Shown here: piece after piece, positions 13,243 to 27,882 of the stretch
Numbering within the stretch: position 1 is the stretch's first letter
Layout of the letters: each line of letters begins with the position of its first letter
From: Celeribacter litoreus
GTDB taxonomy: Bacteria > Pseudomonadota > Alphaproteobacteria > Rhodobacterales > Rhodobacteraceae
Direction of reading: 5' to 3'
NCBI RefSeq assembly: GCF_020165855.1
Contig: NZ_JAIUFY010000005.1
Coordinates: forward strand, 496,001-560,000
DNA: 64,000 nucleotides
Made by a program: the position numbers and the translations under genes
Notes under the pieces: model-generated
Database searches by the model: none
What the model was told of the DNA's origin: nothing
What the model saw: only the letters and a program-made list of their open reading frames with translations

Positions 13243-14163
13243 TCAGGCCTGTCCGGCCAAAACCTGCGCGCGGTCGCGCGAGGGTGGCAGTCCGAACAGG
13301 CGCGCGTATTCGCGGCTGAACTGCGAGGGGCTGACATAGCCGACGTCGAACCCCGCGCGGGCGATCTCTGTTCCGCCGAGGATCGCTCTCCGCGCCGCCT
13401 GAAGACGCAGAGTTTTCTGGTAGGTGAGCGGGCTCATTCCCGTCGCGGCCTTGAAATGGCGTCGAAAGCTTGCCTCGCTCATGCCTGCGCAACTGGCCAT
13501 ATCGCGGATCGGCACGGTCTCTGACAAATGTTCACGAATCCAGCCGAGCGCCCGACGCACTTGCGCGAGGCGCGGATCGGCGGCGACGATCTGGTGCAAC
13601 GCAGGCGCCTGCGGCCCCCGCAAAAGGCGCCAAAGAATCTCACGCCGGATCATGGGGCCGAGAATGGTGCGGTCATCGTCGCTTTGCAGCGAGAGAAGCC
13701 TGTCACAAGCCTCTGGAATGCCCTCTGGAACCGGACCCAAAGCATAACATTTCCCCTGTTGCGCCATGACCTGAGGGGCTTCCGCCAGCAGATCGGCCAG
13801 CGTCTCACGCGCAAGCGAAAGGCTAATGGCGAGGTAGGGTTCTGCAGTGGTGGCTTGCGTCAAGCGTCCCGTGACAGGCATGGCGATAGACCCAACAAAG
13901 CTCTGGCCCGGACGATAGGTCAGGATAGCCGAGCCGATCGTCACCTCCATCTCCCCTTGGAAAACGATGATCGCGACTGGGTCCAGAAAGAGCGCAAGAG
14001 GGCTCGATGTTGAGGTGGCCGAAAACAGCCCGACACCTTCGGTGAGTTCAACGGTCTCTCCCGCCTTGGCAATTGCCGCCGCGCGGGACGTCAGTGAGGG
14101 GCGATAATCAAGCATCTCGGCCTCTGTGTTGATCGGATCAGGCAAGTCTTCGCGCGAAACCAC
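13243..14163 (-). CDS. AraC family transcriptional regulator
   Basis: 306 residues: an N-terminal cupin-like AraC_N domain (about 20-180), then the double helix-turn-helix (about 205-295) with the signature GYVSPSQFSREYARLFG. The start is uncertain: GTG at 14163 gives the full frame, and the ATG at 14115 gives a 290-residue form. Divergent from the Gfo/Idh/MocA oxidoreductase gene, which it may control. It is a paralogue of the second AraC protein at 17571-18515 (shared MSPL-YQK and SPSQFSREY segments). Confidence 0.87.
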   Translation of the reverse strand: MVSREDLPDPINTEAEMLDYRPSLTSRAAAIAKAGETVELTEGVGLFSATSTSSPLALFLDPVAIIVFQGEMEVTIGSAILTYRPGQSFVGSIAMPVTGRLTQATTAEPYLAISLSLARETLADLLAEAPQVMAQQGKCYALGPVPEGIPEACDRLLSLQSDDDRTILGPMIRREILWRLLRGPQAPALHQIVAADPRLAQVRRALGWIREHLSETVPIRDMASCAGMSEASFRRHFKAATGMSPLTYQKTLRLQAARRAILGGTEIARAGFDVGYVSPSQFSREYARLFGLPPSRDRAQVLAGQA

Positions 14164-14255
14164 CGTAGTGATGTGAGGTGCGACTTCTAAATTTCAATCT
14201 ATCACGGGCGGTTGTCGCCGCAAGTTGCGTGGGGTGTTGGGAGGGCATCGCGCGT

Positions 14256-14296
14256 GGCTTGTCCAAATTCGGCAAGCCGTCCACACGTTGTACAAT
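14256..14296 (+). promoter_or_regulatory. Candidate promoter and dyad upstream of the Gfo/Idh/MocA gene
   Basis: An inverted repeat GGCTTG (14256-14261) / CAAGCC (14273-14278) centred on AAATT lies just before a -10-like TACAAT (14291-14296), 15 bases from the ATG at 14311. No good -35 is seen; the dyad covers that position, as expected for a regulated promoter. The best candidate regulator is the divergent AraC protein. Confidence 0.4.
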
Positions 14297-14310
14297 ACGG
14301 AGCAAAAAGA

Positions 14311-15381
14311 ATGACTTCTCCCATCCGCGTAGGATTTATTGGCCTCAATCCGGACAGCAACTGGGCCGCAACGGCGCATATTCCCGCGCTGAAGGCGCTT
14401 TCTGACACGTTCGAAGTCGTCGGCGTCGCGAACAGCACGCCAGAAAGCGGAAAGCGCACGGCAGAGGCGCTTGGCCTTACCGCATATGACACGCCTGCTG
14501 ATCTTGTCGTGTCAGCAGACATCGACGTTGTGGTCGTCACTGTGAAGGTGCCGTATCACTTTGAACTGGTGACACTCGCGCTCGAAGCCGGAAAGCACGT
14601 TTACTGCGAATGGCCTCTGGGCAACGGGTTGGTCGAGGCGCAGAAACTCGCGGCGCTTGCCGAAGAAAAGGGCGTCGTCGCCGTTGCTGGCACGCAGGCG
14701 CGTTGCGCACCGGAAGTCCTGCATCTCAAGAAGCTCATCGATGAGGGCTTTGTCGGTCAGGTGCTGTCGACGTCGATTGTCGGGACTGGTGGCAACTGGG
14801 CGGACAAGACGTCAGATGTCTACTACTACCTCTTCGACAAAGCGAATGGCGCGACCATGGAAGATATTCCGATGGGTCACACGCTCGCGGCTGTGCGGGA
14901 TGTGTTGGGTGACTTCGGGGCGCTGAAGGCGACCAAGTTGCGCAACTTCGAAACCGTCGTGATTACTGACAAAGACGAAACCCGCCCTAAAACCGCCGCC
15001 GATCAGGTTATGGTTCAGGGCGCACTGGAGAGCGGTGCGGCATTGTCCGTGCATTACCGCGGTGGCACGACGAAGGGCACCAATTTCCTTTGGGAGATTA
15101 ACGGGACCGAGGGCGTGATCCAAGTGACCGCAGGTCTTGGTCATGCGCAGATGGTGCAACTGACGATCACAGGTGCGCGTGGCGATGACGACCTTACCGA
15201 GCAGATGCCGGATGCGGCGGTTAATGAGGGGCTGCCGGAATTTCCGGGCGCTCGGAACGTCGCAGGTGTCTATCAGCGCATGGCGGAGGACATTCGGACC
15301 GGATCGCGCTCCGCGCCGAGCTTTGCCGATGCTGTCCGACTTCACGAGGTTCTGGAAGCCATCGACCAAGACGCGTCCTAA
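14311..15381 (+). CDS. Gfo/Idh/MocA family oxidoreductase
   Basis: 356 residues. The N-terminal Rossmann domain starts RVGFIGLNPDSNWAATAHIP, an atypical form of the usual GxGxxG, followed by the family's CEWPLGNG (the EKP/EWP region that contacts the cofactor) and the second alpha/beta domain. The substrate (typically a sugar or polyol, sometimes dihydrodiols) cannot be told. The ATG at 14311 is chosen over the open frame to 14212 because GGAG lies nine bases before it and the N-terminus fits the family. A hairpin terminator follows, shared with the convergent SDR. Confidence 0.88.
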   Translation: MTSPIRVGFIGLNPDSNWAATAHIPALKALSDTFEVVGVANSTPESGKRTAEALGLTAYDTPADLVVSADIDVVVVTVKVPYHFELVTLALEAGKHVYCEWPLGNGLVEAQKLAALAEEKGVVAVAGTQARCAPEVLHLKKLIDEGFVGQVLSTSIVGTGGNWADKTSDVYYYLFDKANGATMEDIPMGHTLAAVRDVLGDFGALKATKLRNFETVVITDKDETRPKTAADQVMVQGALESGAALSVHYRGGTTKGTNFLWEINGTEGVIQVTAGLGHAQMVQLTITGARGDDDLTEQMPDAAVNEGLPEFPGARNVAGVYQRMAEDIRTGSRSAPSFADAVRLHEVLEAIDQDAS

Positions 15382-15390
15382 AAGAAAAGC

Positions 15391-15414
15391 GGCGCGCGAG
15401 TTGCCTCGCGCGCC
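15391..15414 (-). terminator. Hairpin terminator between two convergent oxidoreductase genes
   Basis: Perfect ten-base stem GGCGCGCGAG / CTCGCGCGCC with a TTGC loop. On the minus strand it is followed by GCTTTTCTTTT, so it best serves the SDR gene at 15439-16206; on the plus strand the tail is not T-rich. Confidence 0.7.
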
Positions 15415-15438
15415 GTCCACCGTCCCATGTGCGGTGGA

Positions 15439-16206
15439 TTAGAGGAACTGGCCGTTGTCCACTTGGATCACTTGGCCGGAGACCGCGCGGCCCATCTCGG
15501 ATGCGAGATAGAGAGCAGCGTAGGCCTGGTCGATCGGCTCGGTCCCCGGCACCGTCGTGTTGGTGTATTTGTCGGAGAATTCGAGCATCTCACCGCCACC
15601 TTCCTGTTCGCCTGCGGCCCAAGCGCGGGCTGCGTCGGTGTCGGTCACGCCCGGCGCAATCGCGTTACAGCGGATGTTCGTGCCGGACAAACGGATCGCG
15701 ATGTTGAGCGTCATGGTGTTCAGGCCGCCTTTGGTCGTCGTATAGGCGACGCCGCAGATCGGTTTCGTGCCGTTCACGGAGGAGACGTTAATGATGCGGC
15801 CTTCGTTGCGCGGCATCATGTGATTGATGGCCTCACGCGCATAGCGGAACGGGCCTGCGAGGTTGATCTGCATGAGTTCGTCGAAGTGGTCGTCCGTGGT
15901 CTTCTCGACTGCGAACATCTCGCCGACGCCGGCGTTGTTCACGAGAATGTCGACCTGACCGAACTTTTCGATGGCTTCTTTGAAGACGCGCGGCGGAGCG
16001 TCACGATCTGCGCTGTCGGCCACGACGCCGATTGCGTTTCCGCCCTTCGCATTGATCTCTGCGACGGCCTTGTCGAGGCCCTCTTTGCCGCGTGCGGTCA
16101 AAATGACGTTGGCGCCTTCGTCAGAGAAAAGGTCTGCAATTGCATAGCCGATGCCTTTGCTTGCTCCGGTTACGATTGCGGTTTTGCCTTCCAGAAGCTT
16201 TTTCAT
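15439..16206 (-). CDS. SDR family oxidoreductase
   Basis: 255 residues, a classical short-chain dehydrogenase. It has TGASKGIG at the cofactor site, NNAGVGEM, the catalytic Ser in NVSSVNG, and YTTTKGG with the Tyr/Lys pair; the C-terminal QVIQVDNGQFL is typical of the FabG-like group. The start is placed at the ATG at 16206, with AAAGGA upstream; the frame runs on to 16308, but those residues do not look like SDR. Substrate unknown. It is divergent from the alpha/beta hydrolase gene and ends at a strong hairpin. Confidence 0.9.
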   Translation of the reverse strand: MKKLLEGKTAIVTGASKGIGYAIADLFSDEGANVILTARGKEGLDKAVAEINAKGGNAIGVVADSADRDAPPRVFKEAIEKFGQVDILVNNAGVGEMFAVEKTTDDHFDELMQINLAGPFRYAREAINHMMPRNEGRIINVSSVNGTKPICGVAYTTTKGGLNTMTLNIAIRLSGTNIRCNAIAPGVTDTDAARAWAAGEQEGGGEMLEFSDKYTNTTVPGTEPIDQAYAALYLASEMGRAVSGQVIQVDNGQFL

Positions 16207-16557
16207 GGCATATCCTTTCTTATCAATTGTCGCTGTGTGCGACTGTCTGATCAAAAAGATGGTTTGATGGCCGTCAGGGATTAGGCTGTTTCGATGCACG
16301 CCACTCATTACCCTAATTCATAAGTTGCGTTTCTTCCTTCAAAGCCAGTGGTTTGGGGTGCACATTCGCTATGCCGAGCCCGGGGCAGGCCGCTGTGTGG
16401 TTGCGTCCCTCCGATAGTCGAGATTCTCAAAAATGCGGTGGTTCGGAGAATTAGGCAAGAATTGCGCGGCAATGTTCTACCTCTCTCCGGAAGAGGTGCC
16501 TTATCTCATGCTCAACGCCGACGCAGATGTCAGCGACCTGTAAGAAAAGGACACACC
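16207..16557. other. 351-base intergenic region between an SDR and a hydrolase
   Basis: Divergent promoter region without a convincing gene. It contains a small dyad GTCGC-TGTGT-GCGAC (16229-16243) close to the SDR start, which could be an operator. The frame open from 16348 into the hydrolase gene lacks a ribosome site and does not resemble the family. No clear -35/-10 pair could be assigned. Confidence 0.5.
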
Positions 16558-17514
16558 ATGGAACTTACTCAAGACTGGGACAAAACATTCCCGAAAAGCG
16601 ACAAAGTAGACCACAAGAAGGTCACTTTCACCAACCGCTACGGCATCACGCTCGCCGGTGATCTCTACACCCCGAAAGCGGACGGCCCGTTCGCAGCAAT
16701 CGCAATCAGCGGTCCGTTCGGTGCGGTAAAAGAGCAATCCTCCGGCCTGCACGCTCAAGTGCTCGCAGAGCGCGGCTTTGTCACCCTTGCATTCGACGCC
16801 TCCTACACCGGTGAGAGCGGTGGCGAACCCCGCAACCTCGCATCTCCCGAGATCAACACCGAAGACTTCAGTGCAGCTGTCGACTTCCTTGGCCTGCAAG
16901 ACAATGTAGATCGTGAGCGTATCGGTATCCTTGGCATCTGTGGCTTCGGCGGCATGGGCCTGAATGCTGCTGCGGCCGACCCGCGTATCAAGGCAGTGGC
17001 CACCTCCACCATGTACGATATCAGCCGTATGATGTCGCAGGGCTATTTCGACAGCACCACGAAAGAGCAGCGCATCGAGGGCCGCAAGGCGCTGAACGAA
17101 CTCCGTTGGGCTGACGCAGAATCCGGCACTCCGGCCTATGGTCCGACCGCGCTGCAGAACCTGCCGGAAGAGGCTCCGCAATTCGTCAAAGAATATGCGG
17201 CCTACTACACGGACGAAAACCGCGGCTTCCACGCACGTTCGGTGAACTCGAATGGCTCCTGGACGCTGACCACGCCGCTGTCCTTCATGAACATGCCGCT
17301 GCTGACCTACATCGACGAGATCGCGCCGCGTCCGGTCCTGTTGGTCCACGGTTCCGCAGCACACTCTCTCTACTTCAGCGAGACGGCTTTTGAGAACGCA
17401 GCAGAGCCGAAGGAACTGTTCATCGTTGAAGGTGCAACTCACACAGACCTCTACGACCAGATGGACAAGATCCCGTTCGACAAATTCACCAGCTTCTTCT
17501 CCGAGAACCTGTGA
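16558..17514 (+). CDS. Alpha/beta hydrolase with a cysteine nucleophile (YcjY / dienelactone-hydrolase-like)
   Basis: 318 residues, cytoplasmic. The nucleophile elbow reads GICGFGG with Cys128 where most hydrolases have Ser, as in dienelactone hydrolases and the YcjY-like group. The acid and His are likely in the C-terminal part (PVLLVHGSAAHS and EGATHTDLYD). The ATG at 16558 is preceded by AAAAGGACACACC and fits the family start. It is followed 56 bases later by an araC gene on the same strand, which may regulate it. Reaction unknown; hydrolysis of a lactone or ester is a guess from the fold. Confidence 0.82.
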   Translation: MELTQDWDKTFPKSDKVDHKKVTFTNRYGITLAGDLYTPKADGPFAAIAISGPFGAVKEQSSGLHAQVLAERGFVTLAFDASYTGESGGEPRNLASPEINTEDFSAAVDFLGLQDNVDRERIGILGICGFGGMGLNAAAADPRIKAVATSTMYDISRMMSQGYFDSTTKEQRIEGRKALNELRWADAESGTPAYGPTALQNLPEEAPQFVKEYAAYYTDENRGFHARSVNSNGSWTLTTPLSFMNMPLLTYIDEIAPRPVLLVHGSAAHSLYFSETAFENAAEPKELFIVEGATHTDLYDQMDKIPFDKFTSFFSENL

Positions 17515-17570
17515 TAAACTGGCGGGGCTGCTTTCGGGCGGCCCTGCGATCCCATTTGGACATTTGACCT

Positions 17571-18515
17571 ATGAGCGACCTCGAGACCCGATTTGGACAA
17601 GAGCCACATGCCCGCTTGGCGGACATGATCGCGGCATGGTGCGGTGACGCGGAAGATGCCTCGACCCCGATTGACGGGTTGGCGTTTTTCCGGCGCACAC
17701 GGCCGACCGAGCCGGATGTCTGTCTCGTGGAGCCTGCGTTGCTCGTCGTGGCGCAGGGGGCCAAGCAGATGCTCGTCGACGGTGCCCCGCATCGCTACGA
17801 TCCGTCGGGCTTTCTCATCACGTCGCTCGAAATTCCCGGACAGACACAGATTATAGAGGCCAGTCCCGAGGCCCCGTGTCTTGGGCTCATGATGCGCCTC
17901 GATCAGCGCATGCTCGCCGAGATGGTCGCCCGCGATGTCATCCCGCCACGCCAGCGTCCGGACCGGAGAAGCGTCGCGGTCGGACAGGTGACGCCTGCTT
18001 TGATTTCACCGTTGGAGCGGCTTATCGGTCTCTTGGATGAACCCGAAGCGATTTCCTTTCTGGCCCCGCTCATCCTGCAAGAAATCCATTACCGCCTTCT
18101 CCTGAGTGATCAGGGTGGCCGTCTATGGTCCTTCGTTGCGGCAGGGAGCACGAACCAGCGTATTCTCTCGCTCGTGAATTGGATGAAACTGAACTACGCA
18201 GAGCCGCTACGCGTGGACGACCTCGCAGATCGGGCGCAGATGAGTGTTTCGACCTTCCATCAGCATTTCCGTGAACTGACAACCATGAGCCCGCTGCAGT
18301 ATCAGAAGTGGCTGCGCCTGAACGAAGCGCGGCAGATGATGCTGAACGATCATCTGGACGCGGCGAGCGCCTCTTTCCGCGTGGGCTATGAAAGCCCGTC
18401 CCAATTCAGCCGCGAATACTCCCGCCTCTTCGGGAATCCGCCCAAACGCGACATCGAACAGTTGCGTCTCGAAGTGGCTGGTCGGCAGCCGCTCGCCATT
18501 GAGGGGCGCCGCTAG
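17571..18515 (+). CDS. AraC family transcriptional regulator
   Basis: 314 residues: an AraC_N cupin-type domain (about 35-190) and a C-terminal double helix-turn-helix (about 205-300) with VGYESPSQFSREYSRLFG. Same subfamily as the AraC protein at 13243-14163. It lies directly downstream of the Cys-nucleophile hydrolase gene and ends before a strong terminator, so the hydrolase and this regulator probably form one transcript with the regulator acting on it or on the divergent SDR (inference). Confidence 0.9.
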   Translation: MSDLETRFGQEPHARLADMIAAWCGDAEDASTPIDGLAFFRRTRPTEPDVCLVEPALLVVAQGAKQMLVDGAPHRYDPSGFLITSLEIPGQTQIIEASPEAPCLGLMMRLDQRMLAEMVARDVIPPRQRPDRRSVAVGQVTPALISPLERLIGLLDEPEAISFLAPLILQEIHYRLLLSDQGGRLWSFVAAGSTNQRILSLVNWMKLNYAEPLRVDDLADRAQMSVSTFHQHFRELTTMSPLQYQKWLRLNEARQMMLNDHLDAASASFRVGYESPSQFSREYSRLFGNPPKRDIEQLRLEVAGRQPLAIEGRR

Positions 18516-18562
18516 ACGTCTCGTCCTGAGTCTCAAACGCACGACCATTTCTCTCATCGGTG

Positions 18563-18591
18563 CCCCGCAAACCTGTGTTTGCGGGGTTTTT
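18563..18591 (+). terminator. Rho-independent terminator after araC
   Basis: Perfect ten-base stem CCCCGCAAAC / GTTTGCGGGG with a CTGT loop followed by TTTTT. It closes the hydrolase-araC transcript and isolates the meta-cleavage operon promoter that follows. Confidence 0.88.
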
Positions 18592-18643
18592 CGTTGTCGA
18601 TATTTTTGCGTGCGCGGCATCAACACCGATTATATTTAAAAAT

Positions 18644-18684
18644 ATCGTTTTTAATTGACATGAACGATTAATTGGTCGCATGTT
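18644..18684 (+). promoter_or_regulatory. Promoter and inverted repeat of the meta-cleavage operon
   Basis: TTGACA at 18655-18660 is a consensus -35; the -10 is weak (CATGTT at 18679, spacing 18). The -35 sits between the half-sites ATCGTT (18644-18649) and AACGAT (18663-18668), 13 bases apart. The TRAP operon promoter has the same half-sites and spacing (24919-24943). This is the likely operator of the GntR regulator encoded at 24091-24813. Confidence 0.6.
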
Positions 18685-18822
18685 CAGACCAAGATGTGCG
18701 CGCGGGATGCGTGGGAGACGTGCTTGGAGGCAGCGCTGGCTCGGGAACATCGATTAAAAGAGGAGAGCTTTGTGAGGGAGGGCGCGCCGCCTTTGGCCTC
18801 ACAGGCAATAGGGATCATAGAG

Positions 18823-20307
18823 ATGAGAGACGGGCTATTGAGCTTCACGCAAGAGGCGATGCATTTTATCGACGGAGAGTTCACCTCGGGAACATCCGGA
18901 AAGACCTTCGACAACATTTCGCCGGTGACGGGCAAAAAGATCGGGATCGTCCATGAGGGGTTGCAGCCCGAAGTCGACGCGGCGGTCAAAGCGGCGCGCG
19001 ATGCTCTCCATGGTGACTGGGGCTACATGACGACGGCGGCGCGTGCCGAATTGCTCCATGCCGTGGCGGATGAGATCAACCGCAGGTTCGATGATTTCCT
19101 CGAGGCGGAAATCCTCGATACGGGTAAACCCAAAGGGCTCGCCTCACATGTCGATATCCCGCGTGGTGCAGCGAACTTCAAAATCTTTGCGGACCTTGTG
19201 AAGAACGTCCCGACAGAGAGCTTCATGCTCGACACGCCTGACGGTTTCGGCGCGGTGAACTACGGTGTGCGCAAGCCGAAGGGAGTGATTGCCGTGATTA
19301 GCCCATGGAACCTGCCGCTCCTGCTGATGACGTGGAAGGTTGGCCCTGCCTTGGCTGCGGGCAACACGGTGATCGTAAAGCCGTCGGAAGAAACGCCGCT
19401 CACAACCACGCTTCTCGGCGAAGTGATGAACACGGTGGGTGTGCCGAAAGGTGTGTTCAACGTGGTGCACGGCTTTGGTCCGGACAGCGCAGGTGCATTC
19501 CTCACCGCGCACCCCGATGTGGACGCCATCACCTTCACGGGCGAAACCCGCACAGGTGAGGTCATCATGCAATCTGCGGCTAAGGGGCTGCGTCAGGTCT
19601 CTATGGAATGCGGAGGAAAAAACGCGGGCATCGTGTTTGCGGACGCCGACATGGATAAAGCCATCGAGGGCACGCTCCGATCCGCCTTTGCGAACTGCGG
19701 TCAGGTTTGCCTCGGCACAGAGCGTGTCTATGTCGAGCGCCCGATCTTCGACGAGTTCGTGTCCCGCCTGAAGGCAGGCGTCGAGATGATGAAGCTCGGT
19801 CCGTCCGATGATCCGGAGACCTCCATGGGGCCGCTCATTTCGCAAGAGCACAAATCCAAGGTCATGTCCTACTACAAGCTCGCCGTCGAAGAGGGGGCGA
19901 CCGTGATCACCGGTGGTGGGGAGCCGGAGATGCCGGACGCATTGAAGGGGGGCGCATGGGTCGAACCGACGATCTGGACGGGCCTCGCGGAAGATGCGCG
20001 CTGTATCAAAGAGGAAATCTTTGGTCCCGTTTGCCATATCGCGCCGTTCGACAGCGAAGAAGAGGTGATCAAGCTGGCGAACGATACGAAATACGGCCTC
20101 GCCACGGCGATCTGGACCGAGAACCTCACAAAGGCGCACCGCGTGGCGCGTCATATCGATGTGGGTCTCGTCTGGGTCAACTCGTGGTTCCTGCGCGATC
20201 TACGCACGGCCTTTGGTGGTTCGAAGGCCTCCGGCATCGGTCGCGAGGGCGGTGTGCATGGTCTCGAGTTTTACACCGAGCTGACCAATGTCTGTGTGAA
20301 ACTCTGA
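18823..20307 (+). CDS. dmpC: 2-hydroxymuconic semialdehyde dehydrogenase
   Basis: NAD-dependent oxidation of 2-hydroxymuconate semialdehyde to 2-hydroxymuconate (4-oxalocrotonate), the first step of the dehydrogenase branch of meta-cleavage. About 494 residues. It matches DmpC/XylG closely: VISPWNLPLLLMTWK, FTGETRTGEVI, MECGGKNAG with the general-base Glu, and CGQVCLGTERVYVERPIFD with the catalytic Cys. The C-terminus ASGIGREGGVHGLEFYTELT is diagnostic. Starts at ATG 18823 (AGGGA upstream) or 18859 (MHFIDGEF, which aligns best with the family) are both possible. First gene of a six-gene operon with the hydratase 11 bases downstream. Confidence 0.92.
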   Translation: MRDGLLSFTQEAMHFIDGEFTSGTSGKTFDNISPVTGKKIGIVHEGLQPEVDAAVKAARDALHGDWGYMTTAARAELLHAVADEINRRFDDFLEAEILDTGKPKGLASHVDIPRGAANFKIFADLVKNVPTESFMLDTPDGFGAVNYGVRKPKGVIAVISPWNLPLLLMTWKVGPALAAGNTVIVKPSEETPLTTTLLGEVMNTVGVPKGVFNVVHGFGPDSAGAFLTAHPDVDAITFTGETRTGEVIMQSAAKGLRQVSMECGGKNAGIVFADADMDKAIEGTLRSAFANCGQVCLGTERVYVERPIFDEFVSRLKAGVEMMKLGPSDDPETSMGPLISQEHKSKVMSYYKLAVEEGATVITGGGEPEMPDALKGGAWVEPTIWTGLAEDARCIKEEIFGPVCHIAPFDSEEEVIKLANDTKYGLATAIWTENLTKAHRVARHIDVGLVWVNSWFLRDLRTAFGGSKASGIGREGGVHGLEFYTELTNVCVKL

Positions 20308-20318
20308 GGGGCGGATAG

Positions 20319-21113
20319 ATGACGAGCGAAGCAAGTATCCAAAAGGCTGCGGACCGGATCTGGCAGGCTTGGCAGAGCGGCGTGTCGGGTGCGCCTGTTC
20401 GGGACCTGATTGACGAGGGCGATGTCGCCGCCGCCTACGCGGTTCAAGAAATCAACACAAACCGGTGGTTGGAAGGTGACGAACGAGTGCTCTCCGGTCG
20501 CAAGATCGGCCTGACGTCCGTCGCGGTGCAAAAGCAACTGGGCGTCGATCAACCGGACTACGGGATGCTCTTTGCGGATATGGAATACATGGATGGCGAA
20601 GAAATCCCGCTGTCGGCTGTTCAGCAGCCGAAAGTTGAGGCGGAGATCGCCTATGTCGTCTCGGCTCCGTTGACGGGCAAACACCTGACGATGGTCGAAC
20701 TCATCGGTTCTATCGGATACGCGTTACCGGCGCTCGAAATTGTCGGCTCCCGCGTCAAGGACTGGGACATCCGGATCACCGACACCGTCGCGGATAATGC
20801 GTCCTCAGGTGTCTATGTTCTCGGCCAGACGCCGAAGGGACTGAGCGACTTTGATCCCCGCCTGTGCGGCATGGTCATGACGAAGAACAACGAACCTGTC
20901 TCGGTCGGGGCCGGGGCCGCCTGTATGGGGTCACCGCTGAACGCGTCTCTCTGGCTCGCGCGAACGATGGCGGCTGCTGGCCGTCCGCTTGGTCCGGGGG
21001 ATGTCATTCTTTCCGGGGCGCTCGGCCCATTTGTCACCGCCGCACCCGGCGATGTTTTCGAAGCCCGGATCAATGGTCTTGGGTCTGTTCGTGCAGCTTT
21101 CGCAAAGGAATAA
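20319..21113 (+). CDS. dmpE: 2-oxopent-4-enoate hydratase (2-keto-4-pentenoate hydratase)
   Basis: Adds water to 2-oxopent-4-enoate to give 4-hydroxy-2-oxovalerate. 264 residues. It belongs to the FAH-like hydratase/decarboxylase family; motifs include [26 protein letters not shown] (metal-binding Glu residues) and [13 protein letters not shown]. It is a paralogue of the decarboxylase three genes downstream (IGLTS / [13 protein letters not shown] / [16 protein letters not shown] / IADNSSSS), and the two partner in one complex in characterised pathways. Eleven bases after the dehydrogenase and five bases before the acetaldehyde dehydrogenase. Confidence 0.92.
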
Positions 21114-21117
21114 GGTA

Positions 21118-22062
21118 ATGGAAAAGATCAAATGTGCGATCATCGGGTCGGGCAATATCGGCACAGATCTGATGATCAAGATCATGCGCAACTCCAAGGT
21201 GCTTGAAATGGCGGCCATGGTCGGGATCGACCCCGCCTCCGATGGTCTCGCCCGTGCCGCGCGTCTGAACGTCGCGACCACGCATGAGGGGCTGGATGGT
21301 TTGCTGAAGCTGCCCGCGTACAAAGACATTCGGATCGTGTTCGATGCGACCTCGGCGGGGGCGCACAAACGGCATAACGACGTGCTGCAAAAAGATGGCA
21401 AGCAAGTGATCGACTTGACCCCCGCGGCGATTGGCCCTTTTGCGATCCCGCCGGTGAACCTCGATGCGCATCTCGATGCGATGAACGTGAACATGGTGAC
21501 CTGCGGCGGTCAGGCGACAATCCCGATGGTGGCTGCTGTGAACCGCGTCTCTCCGGTGATCTACGGCGAAATCGTCGCGTCGGTGTCGTCGAAATCGGCG
21601 GGGCCGGGCACGCGTGCGAATATCGACGAATTTACCGAGACCACAGCCCATGCCATTGAAGTCGTCGGCGGTGCAAAACGCGGAAAGGCCATCGTCATTC
21701 TCAATCCGGCCGAACCGCCGGTCATCATGCGCGATACGGTGTATTGCCTTTGCGAAGATGCGGACCCGGAGGCGATCCGGAAATCGATCATGGAGATGGT
21801 CGCTGAAGTCCAGAGCTATGTCCCCGGCTACCGTCTCAAACAAGACGTCCAGTTCGAGCATTTCGGTGACAACAACCCGCTCTACATTCCGGAGAGTGGC
21901 GGCACCTTCACGGGGTTGAAGGTCTCCGTGTTCCTCGAGGTCGAAGGCGCTGCGCATTATCTGCCGGCCTACGCAGGCAATCTCGACATTATGACATCGG
22001 CGGCGATGAAGACCGCCGAGGCTCTCGTCCACAAGCGCAACTGGGTCGAGGAGGCCGCATAA
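21118..22062 (+). CDS. dmpF: Acetaldehyde dehydrogenase (acetylating)
   Basis: Converts acetaldehyde, NAD and CoA to acetyl-CoA; works as a channelled complex with the aldolase encoded next. 314 residues counted from the ATG at 21118, which follows a ribosome site AAGGAATAAGG that overlaps the end of the hydratase gene. Motifs: [12 protein letters not shown] (NAD), DATSAGAH, and [10 protein letters not shown] with the catalytic Cys. The C-terminus [12 protein letters not shown] is typical of DmpF/MhpF. Two bases before the aldolase gene. Confidence 0.95.
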
Positions 22063-22063
22063 C

Positions 22064-23083
22064 ATGACCAAGGTTTACATTCAGGACGTGACGCTTCGTG
22101 ACGGCATGCATGCGATGCGTCACCAATACGATCTGGGCCATGTGCGCGCGATTGCGGAGGCGTTGGATGAGGCCGGTGTGGATGCGATTGAGGTGACACA
22201 CGGCGACGGTGTTGCGGGGTCGACATTTAACTACGGGTTCGGACGACATACCGATGTCGAATGGATTTCCGAGGCGGCGAAAGTCGTTAAGCGCGCGAGG
22301 CTGACCTGTCTCTTGGTGCCGGGGATCGGGACGCTTGAGGATCTCAAGAAGGCGCATGATGCAGGCGTTGTTTCCGTTCGGGTTGCGACGCATTGCACGG
22401 AGGCTGACGTCGCCGCTCAACACATCGCTGCGGCCAAGGAGATGGGCATGGATGTGTCCGGCTTCCTCATGATGGCGCATATGAACCCGCCAGAGAATCT
22501 CGCGGAGCAGGCAAAGCTCATGGAAAGTTACGGTGCGGATTGCGTCTACTGCACGGATTCCGGCGGACGTCTGACGATGAGCGACGTGGCCGCGCGGATG
22601 GACGCCTACAAAGCGGTGCTCAAGCCGGAGACCCAGATCGGCGCGCATATGCATGAAAACCTCTCCCTGTCAGTCGCAAACTCTGTTGTCGCCGTGGAAC
22701 ACGGAGCGTTTCGCGTGGATGCCTCCCTCGCGGGGATGGGGGCAGGTGCCGGCAATACACCGATTGAGGCCTTTGCTGCCGTTGCAGATCTCTACGGCTG
22801 GGAGCATGGCTGTGATGTGTTCAAGCTTCAGGATGCCGCCGAAGACCTCGTGCGTCCGCTTCAAGACCGTCCGGTACGCGTGGATCGCGAGACCATGACG
22901 CTCGGCTATGCAGGGGTATATTCGTCCTTCCTGCGTCACGCAGAGCGCGCGGCGGATATGTATGGTCTCGATACGCGGGCCATCCTTGTTGAAATCGGAA
23001 AACGCCATATGGTCGGCGGGCAGGAAGACATGATCGTCGATGTTGCGCTCGACATGGTCAAAGCGAAAGAGGCTGCAGAATGA
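22064..23083 (+). CDS. dmpG: 4-hydroxy-2-oxovalerate aldolase
   Basis: Mn-dependent class II aldolase splitting 4-hydroxy-2-oxovalerate into pyruvate and acetaldehyde, which passes to the acetylating dehydrogenase. 339 residues; HMGL-like TIM barrel starting with [14 protein letters not shown] (catalytic Arg and Asp), the metal-binding [15 protein letters not shown], and [16 protein letters not shown]. The C-terminal LEU5-like domain that contacts DmpF is present (REDMIV-type end [14 protein letters not shown]). The stop overlaps the next ATG (ATGA). Confidence 0.96.
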
Positions 23084-23847
23084 TGGATTTGGCGAAGATC
23101 GCCGAGAGTGTAGATGAGGCGGCGCGGACAGCGACCGAAATCCCGCAGTTCTCGGACGAGAAACCACTCTCTGTCGAAGAGGCCTACGCCGTGCAGGCGC
23201 TGTCGATGCAGCGTCGTTACGCACGCGGTGAGAAACGTGTTGGCATCAAGATGGGCCTGACGTCGCGGGCGAAGATGATCCAAGTCGGCGTTTCCGATGT
23301 CGTTTGGGGGCGTCTGACCGATGGTATGCGCGAAGAAGAGGGCGGCGTCGTTTCGATGGCGAAATACGTCCATCCGCGTGTTGAGCCGGAGATAGCGTTT
23401 CTGATGAAGAAGCCTCTGTCTGGCGAGGTCTCCGCGTTGGAGGCGATGTCGGCGGTCGAGGCCGTGGCACCCGCACTCGAAATCATCGACAGCCGATACA
23501 AGGCGTTCAAGTTCGACGTCGGCGACGTGATTGCGGATAACTCGTCTTCGTCAGGTTTCGTGGTCGGCTCATGGCATAACCCCGAGACGGATATCTCGAA
23601 CCTGGGCATGGTCCTGAATATCGATGGCCGCGCAGGAGAGATCGGCTCTTCTGCTGCCATTCTCGGGCATCCTGTGCGCTCGCTCGTCTCCGCCGCGCGG
23701 ATGGTTGCGTCGGCGGGGGAGGAGTTGAAGGCCGGTGATATCGTGCTCGCGGGTGGCGCCACGGCGGCAATCCCGATGGCGGTGGGGCAGTCAGTTCTAT
23801 TGGAGGTCGAGGGCCTCGGTCAGATCGGGTTCAAGGTCGGAGAATGA
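23080..23847 (+). CDS. dmpH: 2-oxo-3-hexenedioate (4-oxalocrotonate) decarboxylase
   Basis: Decarboxylates 2-oxohex-3-enedioate to 2-oxopent-4-enoate, feeding the hydratase. 255 residues in the same family as the hydratase, with [24 protein letters not shown] and [14 protein letters not shown]. Start is ATG at 23080 (overlapping the aldolase stop) or the adjoining ATG at 23083. Three bases separate its stop from the tautomerase gene. Confidence 0.92.
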
Positions 23848-23850
23848 GCG

Positions 23851-24042
23851 ATGCCGTTTATTGAAGTGACGCTCGTCGAAGGCCGCACGCCAGAGGCGAA
23901 GGCGCGACTGATCGAAAAGGTGACGGACGCAACCGTCGAAGCCATCGGTGCGCCGATTGAGGCGATCCGTGTCTGTATCCGCGAGGTCCCCAAAGAAAAC
24001 TGGGGCGTCGCCGGAAAACAGAAGTTCGTCACGAAGGACTAG
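23851..24042 (+). CDS. dmpI: 4-oxalocrotonate tautomerase
   Basis: 62-residue mature enzyme that isomerises 2-hydroxymuconate to 2-oxo-3-hexenedioate. After Met removal the catalytic Pro1 is exposed, and Arg11 and Arg39 are at the canonical positions. Position 50, usually Phe in the Pseudomonas enzymes, is Trp here (KENWGVAG). Last gene of the operon, ending before a hairpin. The order C-E-F-G-H-I fits the pathway and supports the whole assignment. Confidence 0.93.
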   Translation: MPFIEVTLVEGRTPEAKARLIEKVTDATVEAIGAPIEAIRVCIREVPKENWGVAGKQKFVTKD

Positions 24043-24056
24043 CGATCTAAAGAGGC

Positions 24057-24079
24057 GATCGGGCGTTCTGCGCCCGGTC
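24057..24079. terminator. Hairpin between the meta-cleavage operon and gntR
   Basis: Nine-base stem GATCGGGCG / CGCCCGGTC with a TTCTG loop and one G-T pair. The plus-strand tail ATGGCTTTTCTT is moderately T-rich. Convergent genes meet here. Confidence 0.6.
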
Positions 24080-24090
24080 GATGGCTTTTC

Positions 24091-24813
24091 TTAGTCAGAC
24101 AAGTCGTGCTGTTCTATGAGGTCTGTGTAGGACTTCTCGATATGCGCCTCGATGCGCGCGACGCATGTTTCGACGTCGCCATCGATGGCCGCATCAAAAA
24201 TGCCCTTATGCTCTTCCCGCACGTCCCGTCGCAGCGAATGGTCGCGCACGAGACGTCGGTGGTAGCGGTAGGAGTGCTGGTGCAGCGTCCGGCGGAACCG
24301 TTTGAGCCAAGCGTTGTCGCAATTCTGGACAAGGCAGTCATGGAAGTTCGCGTTCCATTCGTCCCAGTCGTTGGCGAATTCCGCTTTGTCCTGACCGATC
24401 AGGCGCTCTTCGATACGTGAGAGACGGTGATAGGCGGAGACGAGATCGGCCTCCCAGGCCTCGTCACGGTTCGCGAGAGATATGCGGAGCGCCTCAGCTT
24501 CGATCAGCTTCCGTGTGTCGGTGATGTCCCGAAAATCCTTGAGCGACAAAGGCGCGACCCGAAAACCGCGTTGTTGTTCCGAGCTGACGAGCGTGTCGAT
24601 CAGCAAACGCGAGATGGCCTCGCGCATTGTGGACGTCGAAACACCGAACTCCTGACGCAGTTTGTCGACGTGCAGCCGCTCTCCAGGGGCGAGTTCGCCC
24701 GAGATGACCCGTTCCCGCAGCTTTTCATGGACCGTTTGGATGGCGGTCTTTTTGCTCGTCTCTGCGGAGCTTCCCGAAGTGGAATTTTCGCCCATGGGCA
24801 AGGAGTTCGGCAT
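24091..24813 (-). CDS. GntR family (FCD domain) transcriptional regulator
   Basis: 240 residues: winged helix at about 25-95 (VDKLRQEFGVSTSTMREAIS) and an FCD ligand-binding domain at about 100-230 with the metal-ligand pattern D..H (NANFHDCLV) and later histidines. It sits between the meta-cleavage operon and the TRAP transporter operon, and the same inverted repeat lies in both promoters. A repressor relieved by a pathway intermediate or the imported acid is the simplest reading (inference). Confidence 0.92.
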   Translation of the reverse strand: MPNSLPMGENSTSGSSAETSKKTAIQTVHEKLRERVISGELAPGERLHVDKLRQEFGVSTSTMREAISRLLIDTLVSSEQQRGFRVAPLSLKDFRDITDTRKLIEAEALRISLANRDEAWEADLVSAYHRLSRIEERLIGQDKAEFANDWDEWNANFHDCLVQNCDNAWLKRFRRTLHQHSYRYHRRLVRDHSLRRDVREEHKGIFDAAIDGDVETCVARIEAHIEKSYTDLIEQHDLSD

Positions 24814-24918
24814 GTGTATACGGCCTTGGGTTCATGAATTAGTATTGCTTTCACTAGCATTGCCACTCCGCAATCAAAATGTCGAGGATGAGGCGCTTTT
24901 GACGGAAATAAAAAAATA

Positions 24919-24957
24919 AACGATTTTTATTTGACGTATCGTTTTTGTGTCGTAAGG
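24919..24957 (+). promoter_or_regulatory. Promoter and inverted repeat of the TRAP transporter operon
   Basis: TTGACG (24931-24936), 16-base spacer, TAAGGT (24953-24958) form a plausible promoter. AACGAT (24919-24924) and ATCGTT (24938-24943) flank the -35 with 13 bases between, matching the arrangement before the meta-cleavage operon. A GAGGAGGAG stretch follows at about 24967, well before the dctP ATG. Confidence 0.6.
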
Positions 24958-25024
24958 TCTAATCGCGAGGAGGAGTCGTGACATGGCGAGGGGCCATCAG
25001 CGACCCAATAGTGGAGGAGATACT

Positions 25025-26041
25025 ATGAAATACTGGCTTGCCGGCGCGATGAGTGCTGCGCTTTTGACAACCGCCGCGGTGGCGGAAGACAAAGTTGTGG
25101 AAATGAGCTTTTCACATGACTTGCCGACGCAGCACCCCCTGCATTCCCAGGGCTTTCAGGTCTGGGCCGACAGCATTCGCGAAGCCTCGAGCGGGACGCT
25201 CGACATCAGCTTTTTTCCGGCTGGTCAGCTCGGCAAGGCAGAGGACGAGTATGACATTGCCAAATTCGGCATAGCCGACTTTGTTTGGGCAAACCCGGGC
25301 CACACGCCTGGTCGTTTCCCGATCATGGCGCTGGGCGAATTGCCGTTCTTCATCAAATCCGGCCTCGGCGGCACCGAAGCTATGAACGAGTGGTATGCTG
25401 AGTACAAAGAGCAAGAGATGGGCGATGTGAAGTTCTGCGTCGTGCATCTGCACGATCCGGGCACGTTGCACTCCGCCGAGGAAATTCGCGTTCCGGCCGA
25501 TATGAAAGGCATGACTATCCGTCCGGCAAACGGCACCATCGGTCGCCTCGTGCAGAGCATGGGTGGCTCTTCTGTTCAGGTTGGCCCGTCCGAGGCTCGT
25601 GAAGTGATCGAGCGCGGCGCCGCTGATGGCATTACCTTCCCGTGGCGGTCGATTTCGATCTTCGGCATGGACGATGTTGTCCATTACCATCCGGATATGC
25701 CGCTCTACGTGACAAATTTTATCATCGCGATGAACAAAGACCGTTACGAGAGCCTCTCAGAGCGCCAGCAGGCAGTTATCGATGATCACTGCTCGCCGCA
25801 GTGGGGTGCAAAGATTGCGTCAGGTTGGGTCGAGTTCGACAATGAGGGCAAACGTCTTTTCGAAGAAAGCCCGGATCATCACGTGCTTGCACTCTCGGAC
25901 GAAGAGTTGACGGAATGGAAAGAGGCGTCTGCCTTCCTTCTCGATGACTGGAAAGCCTCTGTGACGGCCAAGGGACTCGACGCAGATGCGATCTACAACT
26001 CTTTTGTGGAGCGTCTCGAAGCTCATGACGCAAAGTTCTAA
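25025..26041 (+). CDS. TRAP transporter substrate-binding protein (DctP family)
   Basis: Periplasmic binding protein that hands an organic acid to the TRAP membrane units. 338 residues with a clear signal peptide (MKYWLAGAMSAALLTTAAVA) and the DctP/SBP_7 fold: FSHDLPTQHPLHSQGF at the N-terminus, and an Arg likely to bind the carboxylate in MKGMTIRPANGTIGR. The ATG at 25025, after GGAGATACT, gives the proper signal peptide; the frame upstream does not. Given its operator and neighbours, the ligand may be an aromatic acid or ring-cleavage product (inference). Confidence 0.93.
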   Translation: MKYWLAGAMSAALLTTAAVAEDKVVEMSFSHDLPTQHPLHSQGFQVWADSIREASSGTLDISFFPAGQLGKAEDEYDIAKFGIADFVWANPGHTPGRFPIMALGELPFFIKSGLGGTEAMNEWYAEYKEQEMGDVKFCVVHLHDPGTLHSAEEIRVPADMKGMTIRPANGTIGRLVQSMGGSSVQVGPSEAREVIERGAADGITFPWRSISIFGMDDVVHYHPDMPLYVTNFIIAMNKDRYESLSERQQAVIDDHCSPQWGAKIASGWVEFDNEGKRLFEESPDHHVLALSDEELTEWKEASAFLLDDWKASVTAKGLDADAIYNSFVERLEAHDAKF

Positions 26042-26567
26042 AACGAAAAGCGGAGCCTTCGGGCTCCGCACCATCTCCGGCTGGGTGGAAACCGCCGCAG
26101 CCTTTCTGATGGGGTTGGTCACCTTGCTGGCGTTCGGCTCAGCCGTCATGCGCTATGCATTCTCCGCGCCGATCCCTGACAGTCACGATATTGGTCGTTT
26201 GGCGCTCGGGGTTGCGATCTTCTGGGGCGTGGCGACGGTCAATTATACAGGCAGCCATATCGCAGTCGATCTTCTCTATGAGATGGCCGGCAAGGTGTTC
26301 CGTAAGGTGATGGACATGATCTCGACGACACTGGTGCTCATCTCGTTTGGAGTGCTGACCATGATGATGTCGAAGAATGCTCAGGATGTGTATGCGACGG
26401 GTGAGCATTCCTACGATTTGCGGTTCGAGATCTGGCCAGCCTATTGGCTCATGGTGATCGGAGCCGGACTTGCGACGCTCACGACGGCATTGCGGCTCTG
26501 GCTGATCCTGACAGGCAACACGCCGACGGCGCATGCGGACACTCAGGCCCGCGCCGTAGAAGAATAA
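26025..26567 (+). CDS. TRAP transporter small permease (DctQ family)
   Basis: 180 residues with four predicted transmembrane helices, starting about residue 17. It has the DctQ-like pattern FSAPIPDSHDIGRLAL and NYTGSHIAVDLLYE (small-subunit loop). The ATG at 26025 lies inside the 3' end of dctP, a 17-base overlap suggesting translational coupling. Sits in the inner membrane with the large permease. Confidence 0.88.
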   Translation: MTQSSKTKSGAFGLRTISGWVETAAAFLMGLVTLLAFGSAVMRYAFSAPIPDSHDIGRLALGVAIFWGVATVNYTGSHIAVDLLYEMAGKVFRKVMDMISTTLVLISFGVLTMMMSKNAQDVYATGEHSYDLRFEIWPAYWLMVIGAGLATLTTALRLWLILTGNTPTAHADTQARAVEE

Positions 26568-26583: not shown

Positions 26584-27882
26584 ATGGATCGGGAAACCGT
26601 GATGATCGTGGGCTTTATTGCCCTGTTTCTCATGATGGCCATTCGCGTGCCGATTGCGATTGCTATGAGCCTTGTGGGCATCGGAGGCTTCGCGGCGGTT
26701 GTCGGCCCGTCGCAGGCGCTGCGCCTCGTCTCACTCTCACCGCTTTCAACAGCAACAACCTATCACCTCGGGATGATTCCGATGTTCATCCTGATGGGAG
26801 CTTTTGCGACCCGCTCTGGCATGAGCCACGAACTGTTCCGAGCGGCCGGTGCCTGGCTTGGTCATCGGCGCGGCGGGCTTGCTCTTTCGACGATTGCGTC
26901 CTGTGCAGGTTTCGCCGCCATCTCCGGGTCCTCCATCGCCACGGCTGCTACGCTCACCAAGGTTGCTTTGCCGGAGATGCGCCGGGTCGGATATTCGGAT
27001 TCGGTGTCCTCTGGCGTCATTGCAGCGGGCGGCACCGTCGGCATCCTGATCCCGCCGTCGATCGTGCTCGCGGTCTACGGGATCATCACTGAGCAGGATA
27101 TTGGCAAGCTGTTCATCGCGGGCCTCGTTCCGGGGCTGCTCGCCGTCGCCTTGTATATGCTCACCGTGACTGCGATCTCTTACATGCGTCCCGATGAAAT
27201 GCCGGTGGGTGAAAAGCAAGGCTGGCCGGAGCGGTTCAGATCCCTGCGGGACGTGTGGGCGATTGCGCTTCTCTTCCTGTTGGTCGTCGGAGGCATCTAC
27301 GCTGGTGTTGTGACGCCAACCGAGGCCGCTTCGCTCGGCGCAGTAGGCGCCCTCGTAATCGGTCTCGCGCGCCGCCGCCTGAACTGGGAAGATATCAAGT
27401 TCTGTCTCGTCGACAGTCTGCGGATTTCGATCTCGATCTTCTTCGTCTTCATTGGGGCGCTGCTATTCTCCTATTTCCTCGCGATCACCCGTGCACCGCA
27501 GCAGGTGGCGGAGTATCTGACGTCGCTACCGCTCGGGCCGCATGGGATTATGGTGCTGATCCTTATTCTCTATCTAGTGCTCGGATGTGTCCTCGACTCG
27601 ATGGCGATGGTTGTGCTGACGGTTCCGATCCTGTTTCCCGTGGTAACCGGTCTCGGGTTTGATCCGATCTGGTTCGGTGTGATGGTCGTCATGGCAATCG
27701 AACTTGGCCTGATCACGCCGCCTATTGGGATGAACGTCTTCGTCATCAATTCGGTGGAAAGGGATATCGGTCTGACAACCATCTACCGTGGTCTCGTGCC
27801 GTTCATCGCCATCGATATCGTGCGGATTGGTCTCTTGCTGGTGTTCCCGTCGATTGCGCTGTGGCTGCCGAGTTTGATGTAG
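26584..27882 (+). CDS. TRAP transporter large permease (DctM family)
   Basis: 432 residues with about 12 hydrophobic segments; the Na+-coupled transport channel of the TRAP system. Family motifs include SGSSIATAATLTKVALPEM and AAGGTVGILIPPSIVLAVYG, both conserved in DctM, and a repeated GLITPPIGMNVFVI in the second half. A ribosome site, AAAGAGGTC, lies just upstream of the ATG. The end is followed by a strong terminator. Confidence 0.96.
   Translation: MDRETVMIVGFIALFLMMAIRVPIAIAMSLVGIGGFAAVVGPSQALRLVSLSPLSTATTYHLGMIPMFILMGAFATRSGMSHELFRAAGAWLGHRRGGLALSTIASCAGFAAISGSSIATAATLTKVALPEMRRVGYSDSVSSGVIAAGGTVGILIPPSIVLAVYGIITEQDIGKLFIAGLVPGLLAVALYMLTVTAISYMRPDEMPVGEKQGWPERFRSLRDVWAIALLFLLVVGGIYAGVVTPTEAASLGAVGALVIGLARRRLNWEDIKFCLVDSLRISISIFFVFIGALLFSYFLAITRAPQQVAEYLTSLPLGPHGIMVLILILYLVLGCVLDSMAMVVLTVPILFPVVTGLGFDPIWFGVMVVMAIELGLITPPIGMNVFVINSVERDIGLTTIYRGLVPFIAIDIVRIGLLLVFPSIALWLPSLM

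Follow-up and report, generated by a model that had tools for sequence, protein, structure and literature searches.

What feeds a meta-cleavage pathway that has no ring-cleaving enzyme beside it? The question is raised by the dmpC-E-F-G-H-I operon of Celeribacter litoreus (positions 18823-24042), which lies next to a GntR-type regulator gene and the genes of a tripartite ATP-independent periplasmic (TRAP) transporter within a stretch of 64,000 nucleotides of contig NZ_JAIUFY010000005.1 (496,001 to 560,000 of the forward strand; here called the window, to which all positions given without a contig or locus label refer). Lower meta-cleavage genes are usually taken as a sign of catechol ring opening. 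The reading that we favour, with moderate confidence as a whole, is that this is a meta-cleavage operon trimmed of its ring-cleaving front end and fed in trans. Its origin by loss of the front end is very probable, and feeding in trans by another dioxygenase is a tentative proposal that we consider a reasonable possibility.

All six open reading frames are open and intact on the forward strand. The products of dmpC (18823-20307, 2-hydroxymuconate semialdehyde dehydrogenase; NCBIfam TIGR03216, 875 bits against a cut-off of 693), dmpF (21115-22062, acylating acetaldehyde dehydrogenase; TIGR03215, 477.5 against 282), dmpG (22064-23083, 4-hydroxy-2-oxovalerate aldolase; TIGR03217, 565 against 286) and dmpI (23851-24042, 4-oxalocrotonate tautomerase; 2-hydroxymuconate tautomerase family, 72 against 56.9) exceed the cut-offs of their families, while dmpE (20319-21113, 2-hydroxypentadienoate hydratase) and dmpH (23080-23847, 4-oxalocrotonate decarboxylase) are named from their best models together with their position, both being under the equivalog cut-offs (238.8 of 408.8 bits for TIGR03220 and 325.7 of 350 for PRK11342, 2-keto-4-pentenoate hydratase, in the case of DmpE; 239.1 of 350.6 for TIGR03218 in that of DmpH). 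The semialdehyde dehydrogenase, tautomerase, decarboxylase, hydratase, aldolase and acylating acetaldehyde dehydrogenase of dmp/xyl systems are found here in a single operon. In such a pathway DmpC converts 2-hydroxymuconate semialdehyde to 2-hydroxymuconate, DmpI forms 4-oxalocrotonate, DmpH 2-oxopent-4-enoate and CO2, DmpE 4-hydroxy-2-oxovalerate, DmpG pyruvate and acetaldehyde, and DmpF acetyl-CoA. These intact frames and their NCBIfam matches bear out a preliminary description, made from the window alone, of a complete route from 2-hydroxymuconate semialdehyde downwards. That description also held that no ring-cleaving dioxygenase, ferredoxin or semialdehyde hydrolase adjoins the operon and that a GntR regulator and a DctPQM transporter lie directly beside it, and on both counts it agrees with what we found: Pfam and NCBIfam scans of the neighbouring open reading frames revealed neither a catechol 2,3-dioxygenase (C23O) nor genes for a ferredoxin of the XylT type or a hydrolase of the DmpD type. 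An alpha/beta hydrolase gene at 16555-17514 was considered as a DmpD and set aside, its product passing the cut-offs of Peptidase_S15, PETase and Peptidase_S9 but not those of Abhydrolase_1 and Abhydrolase_6.

Comparison with relatives places this absence in context. The DmpC loci compared from named genomes number 80, with three Celeribacter loci the nearest (93% identity). In 69 of the 80 the fetched flank contains a match to a type I extradiol dioxygenase, not always beside dmpC, and the absence at the C. litoreus operon is therefore unusual; four of the 11 loci without a match (L040, L057, L074 and L100) have less than 1.5 kb 5' of dmpC and are not judgeable. Within the genus, a DmpC orthologue and its operon are present in seven of 20 genomes. 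A C23O profile built from 12 proteins, two of them from genomes G014 and G015, scores 570-575 bits beside dmpC in four of these seven (G004, G013, G014 and G015), and finds only one match, of 132-133 bits and HpaD type, in each of G012, G016 and the C. litoreus genome (G000). The full operons have the order ferredoxin, C23O, DUF336, dmpCEFGHI, ABM and GntR, with dctPQM next in two of the four; the three others all lack the XylT ferredoxin, C23O, DUF336 and ABM genes and all keep dctPQM. In a family-level sample of 394 genomes, DmpC was matched in 15 (at E 1e-200, at least 61% identity) and C23O in two (at E 1e-80), the latter figure being no count of C23O carriers, because that threshold missed more distant dioxygenases beside L158-L161.

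The named operons show the same two forms. Those of dmp, xyl and nah systems and the C23O-bearing ones of Celeribacter sp. HF31 (L032) and C. persicus (L031) have the dmpC-E-F-G-H-I enzymes in common with C. litoreus, and HF31 and C. persicus also share its GntR gene and an identical operator sequence, with TRAP genes alongside in HF31, whose C23O passes the curated cut-off (402 against 320); compared with all of these, C. litoreus is without the XylT ferredoxin, C23O, DUF336, ABM and the semialdehyde hydrolase. C. naphthalenivorans (L033), G016 and Salipiger pentaromativorans P9 (L035; no C23O match in the flank) resemble C. litoreus in having no C23O 5' of dmpC, adjoining GntR and TRAP genes, and the operator directly 5' of both dmpC and dctP. 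Salipiger differs from C. litoreus in that ABM is kept, and G012 and G016 differ in having an aldehyde dehydrogenase gene 5' of the operator.

Which of these forms is the older can be read from position and phylogeny. The full operon of G015 and the trimmed operons of G000 and G012 occupy one and the same chromosomal site, flanked on one side by a block with hisG and ribonucleotide reductase and on the other by a block with ybaK, rpsD and hisC; G016 shares the latter, right-hand block in the stretch compared. These gene names, and IclR for some regulators, were assigned by eye from sequence. In a tree of dmpCEFGH the trimmed operons are not grouped: G012 and G016 are sisters (support 100) inside a group with the C23O-bearing G015 (100) and G004 (95). 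G000 is placed away from this group, and support for the deeper branches is weak (49 and 71). A single shared loss in the genus is rejected, as forced monophyly of the trimmed operons gives a deltaL of 89.3 and a p of 1.24e-5 in the approximately unbiased test. The ring-opening genes have been lost at least twice in the genus, and the trimmed state is derived. Salipiger, whose footprint is different (ABM kept), probably represents a further loss, the absence of C23O there being judged from the flank. The preliminary description was right that no ring-cleaving enzyme adjoins the operon; what it did not foresee is that the dioxygenase had been lost from it, and at least two times in the genus. 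In four of five flanking genes G012 is closer to G015 than to G016, so that recombination between the lineages of G012 and G016 may have been a further means by which the trimmed operon spread. The synonymous divergence (dS) between G012 and G016 (L144 and L143) is unusually low in GntR, dctQ and dctM (0.09-0.12), as against 0.30-0.76 in four of the five flanking genes and 0.11 in rpsD; recombination over this GntR-dctQ-dctM stretch is possible.

The control region bears probable marks of the deletion. An inverted repeat, ATCGTT-N13-AACGAT, lies 5' of dmpC (18644-18668, forward strand) and again 5' of dctP (24919-24943, forward strand), and a pattern scan finds these two perfect matches and no others in the 3.66 Mb genome. 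The first is part of a conserved block that stands before the ferredoxin gene in full operons and before dmpC in G000, G012 and G016. In local alignments with the four full operons, the G000 block matches best over 34-61 bases (84-92% identity) and the G012 block over 46-79 bases (80-89%). The repeat itself is conserved before xylT in full operons, before dmpC in trimmed ones and before dctP, at 13 listed places and two more in Salipiger, before dmpC and dctP. Allowing one mismatch adds six sites genome-wide, and allowing two gives 123, against 50 for a reversed control pattern; in the window three matches with at most one mismatch compare with 0.30 expected, a number reached by one of 100 shuffles. 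One of the one-mismatch sites, C9:312178, was set aside: it lies inside the coding sequence of a gene of the hpa cluster described below, one resembling that for succinate-semialdehyde dehydrogenase, is without the TTGAC core, and looks like chance. No sigma-70-type site was listed at the operators by a consensus scan, in which the promoter-like count is at chance level (one against 2.2 expected), although the operator block does contain TTGAC or TTGACA.

We envisage an ancestral unit, of a kind that relatives still have, consisting of the operator, an XylT-type ferredoxin, C23O, DUF336, dmpCEFGHI, ABM and GntR; in some of these relatives a TRAP operon with its own copy of the operator adjoins it. 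An internal deletion would have taken the ferredoxin, C23O and DUF336 genes and set the operator against dmpC, the ABM gene would also have been lost, and dmpCEFGHI and dctPQM would have stayed as a small regulon. From its linkage we infer that the adjacent GntR/FCD protein (24091-24813, reverse strand; PF00392, 63.8 against 27; PF07729, 68.2 against 24.3) controls both operator sites. Between the operator and dmpC, positions 18714-18800 on the forward strand are probably the decayed 3' end of a DUF336 gene: the translated frame resembles the DUF336 C terminus with a score of 57, the best of 450 window tiles reaching 50, and that score is attained by one of 1000 base shuffles and by none of 1000 codon shuffles. 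This translated test is stronger than its DNA-level counterpart and was set up after the frames had been inspected.

An operon without its entry gene, and with a decayed DUF336 remnant next to it, might be a leftover with no current use whose own decay has yet to come. The substitution pattern makes this improbable. Ratios of nonsynonymous to synonymous divergence (dN/dS) for dmpC, E, F, G, H and I are 0.040, 0.081, 0.085, 0.046, 0.041 and 0.147 between the two trimmed operons of G012 and G016, and 0.029, 0.047, 0.048, 0.024, 0.052 and 0.021 between G000 and G013, where dS is 0.9-1.5 and the ratios are accordingly approximate; dmpI is also short, at 63 codons. With ratios of 0.02-0.15 the operon is therefore still under purifying selection, and the six open frames and the operator kept at both promoters likewise speak against a leftover. 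Since dmpC, dmpH and dmpI are conserved too, the input is implied to lie at or above 2-hydroxymuconate and not only at the DmpE step.

If the operon is in use, its substrate might come from a dioxygenase encoded elsewhere, as the preliminary description allowed. The C. litoreus assembly (3,655,420 bases in 16 contigs, 99.63% complete) yields 12 matches in a Glyoxalase-domain search and two in a LigB search, and three genes among these encode plausible catechol-type ring-cleaving enzymes: HpaD, a type I homoprotocatechuate dioxygenase (C9:310150-311130; 419.4 bits against a cut-off of 321.4), a class III homoprotocatechuate dioxygenase (C9:318205-319065; 459 against 316) and a BphC-like enzyme (C11:148149-149153) that is under all cut-offs, at best 251.7 of 366.5. 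Other extradiol dioxygenases are present, as had been suggested, but a true C23O was not found in the 3.66 Mb, no extradiol match passing the curated C23O cut-off. Both C9 enzymes belong to one cluster, which also contains a TRAP system, hpaE and hpaH, whose products exceed their cut-offs, and an hpaG-like gene whose product does not. This pairing of two homoprotocatechuate 2,3-dioxygenases of unrelated classes (L009 8151-9131 and 16206-17066) recurs in G012, G013 and G016. The cluster of the type I HpaD is present in three of three genomes with trimmed operons and one of four with full ones, and with modest confidence we favour as feeder either this enzyme, at G000:C9:310150, which is the best candidate, or another dioxygenase acting in trans. 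The semialdehyde, or an analogue of it, would then be made in trans by an extradiol dioxygenase acting on a catechol.

The BphC-like enzyme invites a different assignment. Its cluster (L010 5042-12334) comprises TRAP genes, the dioxygenase, an MhpA-like hydroxylase, an FAA-type hydrolase and a regulator gene, and has no adjoining hydratase, aldolase or acetaldehyde dehydrogenase, while the window holds the only DmpG found across the C. litoreus genome; the operon might finish the products of the C11 cluster, with entry at DmpE. We judge this very improbable. The C11 dioxygenase occurs in 10 of the 20 genus genomes, five of which have no DmpG match, the trimmed G012 has the operon but no C11 dioxygenase, and DmpC, DmpH and DmpI would be superfluous. 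As a dedicated feeder the C11 cluster was rejected, not being tied to the operon within the genus. A second alternative arises from DmpC, whose nearest solved chains are 2-aminomuconate 6-semialdehyde dehydrogenases (664 bits), so that the operon could be the lower end of a 2-aminomuconate route from 3-hydroxyanthranilate or 2-aminophenol. Given that the orthologous operons carry a true C23O, this is extremely improbable; a match to 3-hydroxyanthranilate dioxygenase was found in none of the 20 genus genomes, a search in which the control genomes gave no match either.

The transporter offers another answer. Its genes are dctP (25025-26041), encoding a TarP-like binding protein, dctQ (25986-26567), without an NCBIfam match and recognized as the small membrane subunit by position, size and conservation with dctP and dctM in relatives, and dctM (26584-27882; TIGR00786, 343 against 268), encoding the large one, all on the forward strand. 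Searched against solved chains, DctP is closest to 7nqg (318 bits; the next reaches 162). A first structure model (pLDDT 40) was discarded; a second, from an alignment of eight sequences, has a pLDDT of 77, with residues 185-217 poor, and aligns best with the structure of TarP_Rhp carrying 4-hydroxyphenylacetate (Z 35.8, rmsd 1.8, 298 aligned residues, 42% identity). Ranks 3-11 (Z about 32) are taken by TarP proteins with coumarate, cinnamate, caffeate or ferulate and by marine proteins described as aromatic-acid-specific, the ligands and descriptions being those in the titles of the structure entries. DctP is TarP-like in both sequence and predicted fold. A study of the TarPQM transporter of Rhodopseudomonas palustris describes nanomolar affinity of its TarP for coumarate, caffeate, ferulate and cinnamate (PMC3610893); compared with that system, the C. 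litoreus transporter shares an operator with a meta-cleavage lower pathway, and its ligand is a predicted one. A shared fold is no proof of ligand, and our best guess from the model is an aromatic carboxylic acid, a C4-dicarboxylate appearing unlikely; in our favoured reading such an aromatic acid is most likely what the transporter would import.

The preliminary description had also suggested that the compound entering the route may be an acid taken up from outside, perhaps a ring-cleavage product. On this view other microbes release 2-hydroxymuconate semialdehyde, 2-hydroxymuconate or an analogue, the TRAP system scavenges it, the co-regulated dmp enzymes finish it, and a dioxygenase is unneeded. 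The two perfect operator sites stand before the transporter genes and the whole lower pathway and before nothing else; TRAP genes adjoin four of four operons that lack C23O (G000, G012, G016 and Salipiger) as against two of four C23O-bearing ones in the genus; the conservation of dmpC, dmpH and dmpI fits entry no later than the 2-hydroxymuconate step; and elsewhere in the genus TRAP genes are coupled to dmpF-dmpG in a cluster with no dioxygenase gene alongside. The link between transporter and operon has stood, but the claim is weakened by the resemblance of DctP to TarP proteins, which bind ring-bearing acids, and by the presence of the same TRAP genes beside C23O in two of four relatives; the TRAP and C23O counts, moreover, are small and the genomes related. 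Scavenging is in our view unlikely, and uptake of a ready-cleaved acid, while possible, is less likely than feeding in trans. In a broader form, several marine Roseobacteraceae would have turned a catechol operon into a self-contained regulon that imports and finishes the ring-fission acid of their neighbours, having shed the ring-opening genes repeatedly and kept the operator, transporter and lower pathway; we regard that as quite unlikely.

A number of points tell against loss of the front end followed by feeding in trans. In the genome-wide pattern scan none of the candidate feeder genes has a perfect copy of the operator in front of it. The type I HpaD is over its own cut-off and not that of C23O (204.7 of 320.2), and its cluster holds its own HpaE, HpaH and HpaG-like genes; its association with trimmed operons rests on seven related genomes, and G014 has two weaker dioxygenase matches. 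The DUF336 remnant is 87 bases long, and at the DNA level the result is mixed, its score being reached by none of 300 shuffles in comparison with G004 and with G015 but by 41 of 300 with G013 and 87 of 300 with G014; nor is a remnant seen before dmpC in G012 or G016, a further difference from C. litoreus. Most pairs involving G000 have dS >1, and their dN/dS ratios are approximate. A draft of 16 contigs may miss a dioxygenase-bearing piece, yet three separate assemblies agree.

That the ring-opening enzyme has been lost repeatedly while the remainder is selected, together with its operator and a transporter that shares it, implies that the lower pathway seems useful by itself. For marine bacteria this raises the question of whether the feeder of a meta pathway without a dioxygenase is an enzyme elsewhere in the cell or the waste of another microbe, and it cautions against inferring catechol degradation from dmpC-I alone. 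A search of the open-access literature turned up no description of a trimmed dmp operon with an operator-sharing TRAP system, although one may exist. In Pseudomonas sp. PTH10, the opa cluster for o-phthalate likewise has TRAP genes grouped with 2-hydroxymuconate semialdehyde dehydrogenase and the lower meta pathway, and differs from C. litoreus in possessing its own ring-hydroxylating and ring-cleaving dioxygenases and decarboxylase (PMC6362003).

Several features lie around the operon. Terminator-like hairpins of 11 pairs are present on the forward strand 3' of the upstream AraC gene (18562-18587, with a T-rich tail) and 3' of dmpI (24056-24080), the seven such sites in the region being at chance level (6.1 in shuffles). 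Between the conserved edge of the locus and the operon, 13243-18515 encodes two AraC_N-type regulators, a short-chain dehydrogenase/reductase, an oxidoreductase and the PETase/S15-like hydrolase, none with a match at the same place in G012 or G015. Among the 10 proteins of 13243-26041 scanned with Pfam there was no ring-hydroxylating dioxygenase or 4-carboxy-2-hydroxymuconate semialdehyde decarboxylase.

Variants of the arrangement occur further afield. In Telmatospirillum sp. J64-1 (L046 10001-19588) C23O is absent, and after the dmp core come a dioxygenase gene of another class (LigB type), a CMD-family gene and TRAP genes. Locus L157 (G068) has dmpCEFGHI with a divergent GntR gene and no C23O match nearby; as judged by eye, alpha/beta hydrolase and ABC transporter genes come after it and transposase-like genes lie upstream. 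Within the genus, G012, G006 and G015 have a second type of cluster (L216 3424-10616, L218 3082-10273 and L219 2933-10106) with an IclR-like regulator, an FAD dehydrogenase that resembles GlcD but scores under its cut-off, TRAP genes, dmpF and dmpG, and with no dioxygenase or hydratase gene alongside; G016 has a similar TRAP-dmpF-dmpG cluster (L217), and in G000 the only DmpG is that encoded in the window. Judging from their gene content, the L216, L218 and L219 clusters could take up a 2-hydroxy acid and oxidize it, with aldol cleavage as the next step.

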